Shown here: piece by piece, positions 32,729 through 41,604 of the stretch
How the letters are laid out: each line of letters opens with the position of its first letter
How positions within the stretch are numbered: position 1 is the stretch's first letter
From: Gemmatimonadota bacterium
GTDB lineage: Bacteria; Gemmatimonadota; Gemmatimonadetes; Longimicrobiales; Gaopeijiaceae
Direction of reading: 5' to 3'
DNA: 46,803 nucleotides
Assembly: GCA_030827315.1 (NCBI GenBank)
Contig: JAURER010000022.1
Span: 1-46,803 of the forward strand
Translations under genes and position numbers: made by a program
Notes under the pieces: model-generated
What the model was told of the DNA's origin: nothing
The model's database searches: none
What the model saw: the letters and a program-made list of their open reading frames with translations, nothing else

Positions 32729-32929
32729 ATGGAAGTCCTGTGGATCCTGCTGCCGGCCCCGTTCGTCGGGTACCTGATTGCGGACAGTGTCCGGAAGATC
32801 TTCTCCGAAGACGACCGACTCCTGCGGAAGGTGCTCGCCGATCAGCCCGTAACCATGACCGCGGGGCTCACGATCGTGGGCTCGGTCGTGGTCTGGGTCG
32901 TGTCCGAGGTCGCCCGGGGTCTCCTCTAG
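32729..32929 (+). CDS. Small two-helix membrane protein
   Basis: 66 residues: VLWILLPAPFVGYLIADSV, a charged hinge RKIFSEDDRLLRKVLADQ, then MTAGLTIVGSVVVWVVSEVARGLL. Third positions are G/C-rich and the two helices are well formed. Its TAG (32927-32929) lies inside CTAG, and the converging gene's TAG is read from the same four bases on the other strand. Unknown function. Confidence 0.7.
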   Translation: MEVLWILLPAPFVGYLIADSVRKIFSEDDRLLRKVLADQPVTMTAGLTIVGSVVVWVVSEVARGLL

Positions 32930-33159
32930 GCGAGCGCGAACGCCATCGTCCGGCGATCGGCCATCGCACGGCGCTCCCCGAGACGCCGGTCACGCCCCGA
33001 TCGCAGATCGGCCGTGCTGCGGCGATCGGCCGCACGTCGATCGGAGCCTACCCTCTCGGCGGCACTCCTCCGCTCTTCGCCGCGCCGAGGTTCGGCCCGA
33101 CGCTCCGATCCGTTGCGCCGATCGTCGCCCGCGCGTCTGGTCGAGAATCGCTCCAGCAT
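32926..33159 (-). CDS. Small arginine-rich repeat protein
   Basis: 77 residues, about a third Arg. It is built of a D/E-R-R unit repeated about every 5-9 residues (STRRAGDDRRNGSERR, EPRRGEERR, GSDRRAADRR, SGRDRRLGERR, MADRRTM). The gene is well supported: AAGGAGG (minus strand, just 6 bases before ATG 33159) is the best Shine-Dalgarno seen in this window. Similar R-R-x-x-D-R-R stretches occur at the N-termini of some PilZ proteins, but no second domain is here. With such charge, binding to RNA, DNA or a polyanion is possible. It converges with the membrane gene on a shared CTAG. Confidence 0.65.
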   Translation of the reverse strand: MLERFSTRRAGDDRRNGSERRAEPRRGEERRSAAERVGSDRRAADRRSTADLRSGRDRRLGERRAMADRRTMAFALA

Positions 33160-33402
33160 CGCAGTCCTCCTTGGGGAATGCGAAGTTTGAACTTCAAGAT
33201 GGCTTCCGGGGTGGTGGTCGTCCAGAACATTGTCGCGGCCAGCCACACGGCCGGGTGACGGTCATTCCTCGAGGAGGCCGGCGCCACGGCCGATGAGTTC
33301 GGCGCGGTGGAGTGCGGCGCGCGAATGTGGCGCGGGCCACTCAACCCACTCAAGCGTGCAAAGCCTTGCCGCATTGAAGCTTCGGCGACCATTATCCCCG
33401 CC

Positions 33403-34023
33403 ATGGCGCACATCCCGTACGTTCCAGACGACAGAGCTGAAGGGCTCCTCGCCGAGCTCTATCGACGCCTCCGGGGCGAAGAGGGCGTCGTGGACAATAT
33501 CCTTCGGGTCCATTCCCTGAATCCGCGGTCCCTGCAGGACCACCTGCAGATGTACGCCCACCTCATGCGCGGCCCGTCACCCCTCTCCCGCGTCCAGCGC
33601 GAGATGATCGCCGTCACCGTGAGCGCCGAGAACGACTGCTTCTACTGAGTGACGCACCACGGGGCGGGCCTCCGTAAGCTCACCGGCTCGCGCGCGCTGG
33701 CGCATGCGCTGGCCTTCGACCACCGGGCCGCGGAAGTCGGGGCCGCCGACGCGGCAATGCTTGACTACGCCGTGAGGCTGACGCGCGAGCCGGCCCGTGT
33801 ATCTTCCGCAGACGTGGAGCGGCTTCGGGCCGTGGGCTTCACGGACGCCGCGGTGCTCGACATCTGTCAGGTGACGGCGTACTACAACTACGTGAACCGG
33901 CTCGCCGACGGCCTCGGCGTGGAGCTGGAAGACTTCTGGCGCGGGGAAGAGTTGACGATGAGTCGGGAGGAGTTCGAGGAGGCGGCCGCACGCCGCCGAG
34001 CGCGTGCGGAGGCGGGCGAGTGA
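33403..34023 (+). CDS. AhpD-like peroxidase-related protein, candidate selenoprotein (TGA = Sec82)
   Basis: 206 residues if the TGA at 33646-33648 is read as Sec. Relatives in the AhpD/carboxymuconolactone-decarboxylase fold have E-x11-C-x2-C-x3-H; here Glu67, Cys79, the TGA at position 82 and His86 fit that spacing exactly, with TGA in the place of the second (peroxidatic) Cys: NDCFY-TGA-VTHHG. Both halves are in one frame and family-like (IPYVPDDRAEGLLAELY before, DAAMLDYAVRLTREPARV and ICQVTAYYNYVNRLADGLGV after). A SECIS-like hairpin follows. The stop overlaps hutH as GTGA, so the second half is translated into hutH. Alternatives: a nonsense mutation or two separate proteins (GTG follows the TGA directly). 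selA, selB, selC and selD are not in the window. Confidence 0.75.
33649..33683 (+). promoter_or_regulatory. Candidate bacterial SECIS hairpin
   Basis: Directly after the TGA, GTGA (33649-33652) pairs with TCAC (33680-33683), GC (33654-33655) with GC (33678-33679), and ACGGGG (33659-33664) with CCTCCGT's CTCCGT side (33670-33675), one G-T pair included. The apical loop is CGGGC at 33665-33669. The loop starts 16 bases after the TGA and has G in its first two bases, which fits the published bSECIS consensus. Confidence 0.6.
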
Positions 34024-39991: not shown

Positions 39992-41524
39992 CTACAGCCC
40001 TCCCGGCCGGCGCCGCACCGGGGCCGACGGGCGAGCGGGCGGCCCGGAAGGACGGGCAGGAGCCCGCGATCCCGCGCTCGGCTGCGAGCGGGGTGCCGTT
40101 CGTGCGGGGTCCGCTCCGGACGCGCCCGATCTCGTAGCGGGTCGGGCATCGCCGCGGGGCGGTCCCGAACGTGACGAAGGGGCGGGGCGGGCCTGGGTTG
40201 CGCCGCGGGAAGGAGCGGCCGACGGACGTGCCCGCGCGGCGGGAGTCTGCCCCGCGCGGGCCGGCGGCGCCTCGCGCACGCCGGAGCCCGGGGCCGTCCG
40301 GGCTCGGCTTGGGGCGCGAGACGGAGCGGGCGTGGCACCCGGGTTCGACCGCGGAGCCGCCCGCGTCGCCTCCGAGGGCAGGCCCGCCGGAGCGCCCGAA
40401 CGCACCGAAGTCGGACGACGACTGAGCGTGGCCCGCCCCCGATCGGGCGCCGGCGGGGCGTCCGTGGCCCTTCCCCTCGTCGCGGGGCGCTCCTGAGAGG
40501 GACCTGCGACGGGGTTCCCCCTCACCTCCGCGCTCGGTGACCGAGACGACCCGGACCGGGCACTCGGCGCGGGGGGCGATCGCTTGAGGACGGAGGCGGG
40601 TCGGGTGGCGGGGGATCCCCGTGTGGTGCTCTCGACCGCCACGGGTCGGCGACCGACGGTGGGCCTGCGCGCGTCACCCGCCACGGGTGCGTCGGCGCGC
40701 CCCCCCGCGCGTACGCCGGAGCGCGACGACGGGGCTCCCGGAGCGGTGGCCCGTCCTGCGCTGGTGGTCGGCCCCACGGCGGGCGCCCGGCGATTCACCG
40801 ACGAGACGCCGTTGGGGCGGCCGTTCGCGGCTTCCGCGATCTGCGCCCTCGACGGGGCCGCGGGCCCGGCCGTGGGCCGCCGCTGGGCCGTGCGCCCGGT
40901 GGCCGAACCCCCGGGTCTCTCCTTGTATCGGGCGTCGCTCCCGTCGTAGTGCGGCGTGGCGTACACCCGGCTGAAGTGCCGGGGTGCGTAGGCGTAGTAG
41001 TAGCCTCCGCGGCTCCAGCCTCGAGCGTAGTGCCCGTCGGAGTACCCGTTCCAGTACCCGTTCCAGTACGACCCCCAGGGGTCATACGCCCAGTACGGGC
41101 CCCACGGCTCCCAGAAGGGGTCCCCGACGTACGCGAAGCGGGACGGCACCGGACGGAAGACGCCCCATCCCCGGTAGCTCCAGGAGTACGGGTGATAGGC
41201 TGGGTAGTACGACGCGGTCACGACGCACGCGGCGTGGTACCCGTAGTCGTAGTCCCAGCAGCTGGCCGAGCCGTGGACGCGGCTCGAGTAGATGCCGTAC
41301 CCGTCGTAGCCACCGTACGCGTAGCCGGGGTGCGCGCTCCCGAAGGAGGCACCGACGAAGACCGACCCGGCGTCGTAGGCCAGCGCGCCGACGCCGAGCG
41401 AGACGCCCGTGAAGAGCGGCCCCGTGGAGAAGCCGAGCGAAAGGCTCGACTGCCCCCGCACTCCGACGGCCCCGACCGTCGCCAGGGTCGCGAGAACCAG
41501 AGTCGCTCGGGCTGCGCTACGCAC
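39992..41524 (-). CDS. Secreted repeat-rich protein of unknown function
   Basis: 510 residues from GTG 41524, chosen since GGAGG lies 5 bases before it and the product then begins with the signal peptide (ATLVLATLATVGAVGVRG-Q). The first 200 mature residues are rich in Tyr, Trp, Gly and Pro, with short repeats (GYAYGGYDGYG, WEPWGPYWAYDPW, YWNGYWNGYSDGHYARGW) like surface or adhesive proteins. The rest is a low-complexity Pro/Ala/Arg/Ser tail with many P-A/R-P and RP-x-x-x-R-P turns, surely disordered and very basic, perhaps binding polysaccharide or nucleic acid. No family is recognised. Confidence 0.7.
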   Translation of the reverse strand: MRSAARATLVLATLATVGAVGVRGQSSLSLGFSTGPLFTGVSLGVGALAYDAGSVFVGASFGSAHPGYAYGGYDGYGIYSSRVHGSASCWDYDYGYHAACVVTASYYPAYHPYSWSYRGWGVFRPVPSRFAYVGDPFWEPWGPYWAYDPWGSYWNGYWNGYSDGHYARGWSRGGYYYAYAPRHFSRVYATPHYDGSDARYKERPGGSATGRTAQRRPTAGPAAPSRAQIAEAANGRPNGVSSVNRRAPAVGPTTSAGRATAPGAPSSRSGVRAGGRADAPVAGDARRPTVGRRPVAVESTTRGSPATRPASVLKRSPPAPSARSGSSRSPSAEVRGNPVAGPSQERPATRGRATDAPPAPDRGRATLSRRPTSVRSGAPAGLPSEATRAAPRSNPGATPAPSRAPSRARTAPGSGVREAPPARAGQTPAARARPSAAPSRGATQARPAPSSRSGPPRGDARPATRSGASGADPARTAPRSQPSAGSRAPARPSGPPARPSAPVRRRPGGL

Positions 41525-41604
41525 GGTATCCTCCTTCGCTGAGTCTGCCCGCGGGAGGTGCACGACGCGTGCCAGCCCGGCACGAGATCCACATCCCTAT
41601 GCTT

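Follow-up and report, generated by a model that had tools for sequence, protein, structure and literature searches.

By build, the nearest described counterpart of the protein family considered here appears to be the Arg-rich region (ARR) of Cle, a CheY-like c-di-GMP effector of Caulobacter. In the accessible part of the source, this region is attached to a REC domain, carries tandem [Y/F]xGP[D/E][R/K]R motifs, and is sufficient to bind c-di-GMP (PMC5677366). Small DUF1127 proteins offer a second comparison. According to the portion of the text available, they contain on average 14% Arg and have two predicted helices, and one of them, CcaF1, is an Arg-rich RNA binder (PMC12501420).

We studied a small Arg-rich gene in a 46,803-nucleotide contig of a Gemmatimonadota bacterium (the whole stretch that was analysed, referred to as the window). 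The gene encodes an Arg-pair repeat ('DRR') microprotein, and the features at its locus are the following:

32926..33159, minus strand: DRR microprotein gene, 77 codons plus stop TAG (reading frame, orthologs, codon test, frame test)
33166..33172, minus strand: ribosome-binding site AAGGAGG, 6 bases 5' of the DRR ATG
33160..33402, no strand: divergent intergenic region of 243 bases, up to the ATG of an AhpD-like gene (gene order)
32729..32929, plus strand: convergent neighbour encoding a hydrophobic protein of 66 aa, with overlap between its stop codon and that of DRR

The coding part runs from 33159 to 32929 on the minus strand, with the TAG at 32928-32926, and the product (MLERFSTRR...DRRTMAFALA, 77 aa) contains 10 RR pairs, 24 Arg, no Lys, and 14 Asp+Glu, giving a net charge of +10. 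The initial annotation, which gave no strand, had described 77 codons with about ten R-R pairs in a D/E-R-R rhythm, and the minus-strand reading confirms this. The plus-strand reading of 32926-33159 was rejected: it gives a different peptide with fewer Arg, and a search of its own genome matched itself alone. The DRR protein holds eight [DE]RR in 77 aa, compared with at most three elsewhere in the window's six frames and at most four in order-1 Markov simulations of the window (n=60). The AAGGAGG at 6-base spacing was also found as annotated (33172-33166); it is the basis on which the initial annotation suggested that the protein may be abundantly translated. That it is the best ribosome-binding site of the window is true in the AAGGAGG sense alone, as AAGGAGG-N4-9-ATG has a single match in the window (the DRR gene; 0.06 expected) whereas AGGAGG-N4-9-ATG has three (1.53 expected). 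A GTG located 29 codons upstream in the same open frame is a possible alternative start, which would give a protein of 106 aa, but 7 of the 8 orthologs in the genus, as read, start at this ATG or at most two codons away.

A consensus scan found no sigma-70-like promoter in the intergenic region (33160..33402); in several relatives, this position upstream of the DRR gene is occupied by a K+ channel and/or an antiporter. The 66-aa hydrophobic protein (32729-32929) is present in 6 of the 7 other genus loci and has no Pfam or NCBIfam match; it is context, outside the proposed DRR system. Rfam reports two tRNAs over the window and nothing else. As a separate observation, the AhpD-like/peroxidase-related gene (33403-34023, plus strand) has an in-frame TGA at 33646-33648 within CFY-TGA-x-x-HH, and this TGA is kept in all eight loci inspected (three genera), with conserved bases following it. 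The pattern is as expected of a CxxU selenoprotein, which makes the gene a candidate.

Homologues, whose search the initial annotation proposed, were found both within the genus and beyond it. Orthologs of the DRR gene are present in 8 out of 14 genomes of the genus (the window's own counted). On one side or both, the gene order of each of the seven other loci agrees with that of the window, with the caveat that the contigs of some relatives end nearby; hutH lies on one side in six of the seven, and in G010 the ankyrin and DUF1552 genes are retained on the other. The eight-sequence alignment has 26 invariant columns, of which 22 are Arg, and in every one of the 22 at least two different Arg codons occur. 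The mean pN/pS is 0.50 over 28 ortholog pairs, with synonymous change near saturation. Among the possible frames, the sense frame alone is free of stops in all eight sequences. One antisense frame is nearly as conserved (mean identity 0.51 vs 0.54 for sense), and it has 3 stops vs 0 and 19 invariant columns vs 26. Based on these sequence comparisons, the DRR ORF can be taken as shown to be a conserved protein-coding gene, and the earlier view of it as a real protein is supported by the orthologs, the synteny and the codon test. Four other matches were rejected as spurious: one in G003 (three stops), those in G081 and G105:C12 (read, and not repeat-like), and G000:C84:32972-33154 (antisense).

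Using a profile of 24 sequences (E<=1e-3), we found matches in 30 of the 154 genomes of the order, 29 of them within the window's taxonomic family (121 genomes). The match in G082 is doubtful and regarded as spurious (it contains one stop, and its locus L108 lacks a dense repeat), and the locus of the G054 match (L109) has no dense repeat either. In wider samples, at E<=1e-4, the profile matched 64 of 394 genomes from the class and 63 of 395 from the phylum, where the two samples overlap and the matches are only partly verified; among the matches listed, all fall within the window's class. When the genus set was compared with the set from family f6 by hhalign, the probability was 94.7% (E 6.1e-8), both sets being compositionally biased.

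The 58 members that were translated (a part of all matches; the readings of L101 and L104 lack a start codon) show a regular architecture. Conservation of the R-R spacing, suggested earlier as a check, was borne out with some selection bias: 480 of 559 RR-to-RR steps are 5 or 6 residues, 59 are 11 or 12, and 20 are other, and these counts are biased since most of the 58 members were found with a profile having that spacing. Because the spacing-aware profile had found most members, we also took, regardless of spacing, all segments that hold 8 or more RR per 70 aa from 687,443 bases. In the 81 segments with at least 40% acidic residues before RR, 0.93 of the steps are 5, 6, 11 or 12, as compared to an average of 0.52 in the remaining 112 segments (<40% acidic); this control used loci fetched by the profile, so the spacing bias is lessened and not removed. 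D or E precedes 444 of the 617 RR pairs in the 58 members, which contain 61 Lys as compared to 1447 Arg. The longest RR step is 10–12 residues in 46 of the 58, mostly in the middle of the chain and often with a V-x-V core. A common plan is two [D/E]RR blocks around a step of 11–12 residues (often xVxVxERR), and genus members have two long steps, the second retaining a single R. All 31 proteins tabulated have a net charge between +6 and +20, and their charged-residue fraction ranges from 0.36 to 0.62. DRR proteins are mostly stand-alone, roughly 60–106 aa long, with about 7–15 RR pairs. The window protein shares the features by which we recognise members (RR every 5–6 residues, mostly behind D/E, few Lys), matches the profile, and lies in the gene order common to its relatives. 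Separately, two f6 genomes (L135, L149) have a further DRR-like ORF, located about 1.6–2 kb upstream of the first.

The statement that no named family exists for such proteins holds for the members tested. Pfam has no family for 10 members, the window protein among them (one relative has a match at E 9.3), and NCBIfam has none for nine. PHROGs, searched with four members, gave nothing for the window protein; one relative has weak matches to two function-unknown families, phrog_17893 (E 0.013) and phrog_13593 (E 0.25). In PDB, neither a search with one profile nor searches with two sequences gave a match. Structure models of the window protein (24 sequences) and an f6 member (16 sequences) reached mean pLDDT of 59.6 and 61.0 and pTM of 0.11 and 0.13, with a low-confidence helix at 12-21 in the f6 member, so that in the two members modelled no confident fold is predicted. 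Two members had no match in plasmid and phage collections, which is weak evidence of absence because the BLAST low-complexity filter was on, and the window protein alone as query had none in the genome-contig collection, where three close relatives as queries gave three matches. Our literature searches found no paper with the strings DRRSG, DRRxxxRR, ERRxxxRR or RRxxxDRR and nothing on an arginine-rich bacterial 'DRR motif' repeat, and among the best matches listed for arginine-rich small proteins of Gemmatimonadota none concerned the DRR family. The existence of DRR as a conserved small-protein family of Gemmatimonadota bacteria, as yet without a name, is well supported. A phylum that has received little study gains a family of small proteins whose repeat is unusually strict; in our judgement, annotation easily overlooks short, compositionally biased ORFs of this kind.

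Several relatives have, immediately upstream of DRR and on the same strand, a gene for a K+ channel (Ion_trans_2, TrkA_N and TrkA_C) or for a Na+/H+ antiporter that carries a cNMP-binding domain. The antiporter is found in 13 genomes of the taxonomic family (E<=1e-100), and DRR lies directly downstream of it in eight (G015, G018, G019, G031, G099, G108, G136 and G137). In G009, G016, G107 and G143, DRR was not seen beside the antiporter in a scan that also missed the weak members L102 and L103, nor by eye in 900 bases on one strand; G144 was left unjudged, as its contig ends there. The channel is found in nine genomes of the family (E<=1e-70), with DRR beside it in six (G008, G009, G011, G013, G030 and G092); the G011 channel is frame-shifted and the G092 channel contains a stop. 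The end of the channel gene, the antiporter and DRR share one contig in G137 and G010, and for G019 and G136 we infer the order channel-antiporter-DRR across contig breaks. In G107 both channel and antiporter are present and DRR was not seen. The antiporter of G010 (L016:599-1375, plus strand) seems to be reduced to an N-terminal segment and the cNMP-binding domain, the latter being the only domain detected by Pfam, with DRR still downstream.

In the window's genome (98% complete), neither channel nor antiporter was found at E<=1e-20, and in G006 (L017) the sequence upstream of DRR looks like a shrunken remnant of the K+ channel, with start and end kept and the middle lost. DRR thus outlives these neighbours. 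In other lineages its surroundings differ. Two tandem DRR genes are found in L051, L055 and L058; those of L051 lie behind genes read as ECF sigma and anti-sigma factors, in a stretch where two genes have no Pfam match. A sigma-like gene neighbours DRR in L105, and kinase-like, lipoprotein-like and signal-peptidase-like genes do so in family f6 (labels given by eye in L105 and f6, not by profile). Elsewhere in the window, the gene at 39992-41563 (minus strand) encodes a 523-aa protein without a Pfam match, whose relatives in G134 and G135 adjoin a DRR gene.

The repeat also occurs as a part of larger proteins. We read all 21 profile matches from the class and phylum samples that have open frames of at least 200 codons; 16 are fusions and five are not (G015, G017, G250, G327 and G357). 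The fusions comprise six with REC-GGDEF, one with GGDEF, two with REC (L160 and L161), one with TrkA_N, one with DUF4388, one that is zinc-ribbon-like (a label below the Pfam cut-off), and four whose C-terminal stretch has no assigned identity. Nine of the 16 went through Pfam, including three of the six REC-GGDEF proteins, the other three being called by likeness and GGDEY; the start codon that precedes the repeat is uncertain in L158. GGDE[FY] is retained in each of the seven GGDEF fusions, and five residues ahead of it stands an RxxD, which we take to be the inhibitory site. The six REC-GGDEF proteins look like orthologs of one another, and so do the two REC proteins, so that two events may account for these eight fusions. 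In the TrkA_N fusion (L110:2666-4141, minus strand), the C-terminal Arg-pair repeat tail includes GPERR units.

The initial annotation had suggested a nucleic-acid or polyphosphate binder; what lies beside the repeat in relatives, or is fused to it, fits signalling through second messengers or cation transport at least equally well. Our best guess, a tentative one drawn by analogy, is that the DRR repeat is a disordered c-di-GMP-binding module. We hold this reading most likely, with RNA binding as its main rival, given the likeness to the Cle ARR, the co-occurrence with GGDEF, and a c-di-AMP cyclase that is uninformative. GGDEF is found in 28 of the 29 DRR-positive genomes of the family vs 53 of 92 others, the exception being the doubtful G082; after removing G082 (doubtful match with a stop) and adding G092, the numbers are 29/29 vs 52/92, an association confounded by relatedness because 35 of 40 genera have GGDEF. 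c-di-AMP was considered as ligand and set aside: its cyclase (DAC) is present in 115 of the 121 family genomes, and being nearly universal it does not discriminate. Among the 58 members, YKGPERR occurs in one (L169), GP[DE]RR in eight and aromatic-Pro-[DE]RR in 22; the window protein lacks the Cle motif, and no genus ortholog is among the latter two groups.

If DRR binds c-di-GMP, each [D/E]RR unit would offer guanidinium groups to guanine and phosphate, in the way of the Cle Arg-rich peptide, and the chain would fold around c-di-GMP, possibly as an intercalated dimer. A free DRR protein could then serve as a c-di-GMP sponge or as an effector on partners, and fused to REC-GGDEF or REC the repeat could be a product-sensing tail. 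By a further step, DRR in the ancestral gene set may act on cation transport; in our literature search, none of the best matches listed, with their texts accessible in part, linked the channel or the antiporter to c-di-GMP. The wider picture is speculative and, taken as a whole, unlikely: disordered polyvalent c-di-GMP microproteins across Gemmatimonadota, acting as free [D/E]RR 'sponges' and swapped between proteins as tails of diguanylate cyclases, receiver domains and RCK-type membrane proteins, would link c-di-GMP to K+/Na+ homeostasis.

RNA, DNA and acidic lipids are further ligands of Arg-rich peptides. DRR may be an RNA- or nucleic-acid-binding microprotein that acts like CcaF1/DUF1127, its Arg pairs touching the RNA backbone and bases and its acidic residues curbing non-specific binding, which we regard as possible and somewhat unlikely. 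The net positive charge of all 31 tabulated proteins with few Lys fits such a role, as does the RNA binding described for Arg-rich CcaF1 in the available text (PMC12501420); the acidic residue before 444 of 617 RR pairs is not what we would expect of an RNA binder, and none of the 16 fusions showed a recognisable RNA-associated domain (Pfam on 9 of 16).

Gene order bears on a role as accessory subunit of cation transport, in which a cytosolic basic peptide would dock on the channel RCK or the antiporter cNMP domain, or anchor these proteins to acidic lipids. DRR follows the antiporter directly on the same strand in 8 of 13 genomes and adjoins the channel in 6 of 9 (two more inferred across contig breaks), and one TrkA_N protein (L110) has the repeat as its own C-terminal tail. 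We consider this role improbable. At the loci of G000, G005 and G006, DRR persists with no intact channel or antiporter, G107 has both without DRR seen, the antiporters of G009, G016 and G143 have no adjacent DRR seen, and the members read in other lineages have other neighbours.

A disordered polyampholyte without specific ligand, protecting against ionic or osmotic stress or driving condensates, would account for the low model confidence, the charged-residue fraction of the 31 proteins, and the K+- and Na+-handling neighbours present in part of the family; the sharply conserved RR spacing and the invariant arginines exceed the needs of bulk charge, and we give this explanation slightly less credence still. 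That the ORF is a spurious Arg-rich reading produced by GC-rich sequence has a very small chance of being right and is largely refuted: RR-rich segments are common in wrong frames (112/193 have <40% acidic residues before RR) and the antisense frame is nearly as conserved, but the orthologs share start, stop region and synteny, the sense frame beats the antisense in stops and invariant columns over the eight sequences, and Arg codons vary at all 22 invariant sites.

Compared with known systems, DRR proteins resemble the human microproteins p14ARF and NISM in being Arg-rich and, on our reading of DRR, disordered; unlike DRR, these two are eukaryotic, and the accessible part of the source mentions no regular [D/E]RR spacing (PMC13276856). 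With DUF1127 proteins (YjiS, CcaF1), as far as the available text describes them, DRR shares small size, Arg richness, a mostly stand-alone form, and several copies per genome in some lineages; unlike them, the window protein has 24 Arg in 77 residues, a strict repeat and no confidently predicted fold, and the DUF1127 Pfam profile matches neither it nor nine relatives. The Cle ARR, in the part of its description available, has two units in about 28 aa, unlike DRR with about 7–15 RR pairs, mostly without the aromatic-Gly-Pro part and mostly stand-alone; the window protein in particular is stand-alone, with neither the tandem [Y/F]xGP[D/E][R/K]R nor a CheY-like REC domain attached. Both are short, Arg-rich and built of tandem acidic-Arg-Arg units, and among the DRR relatives L160 and L161 are likewise fused to REC and L169 carries YKGPERR.
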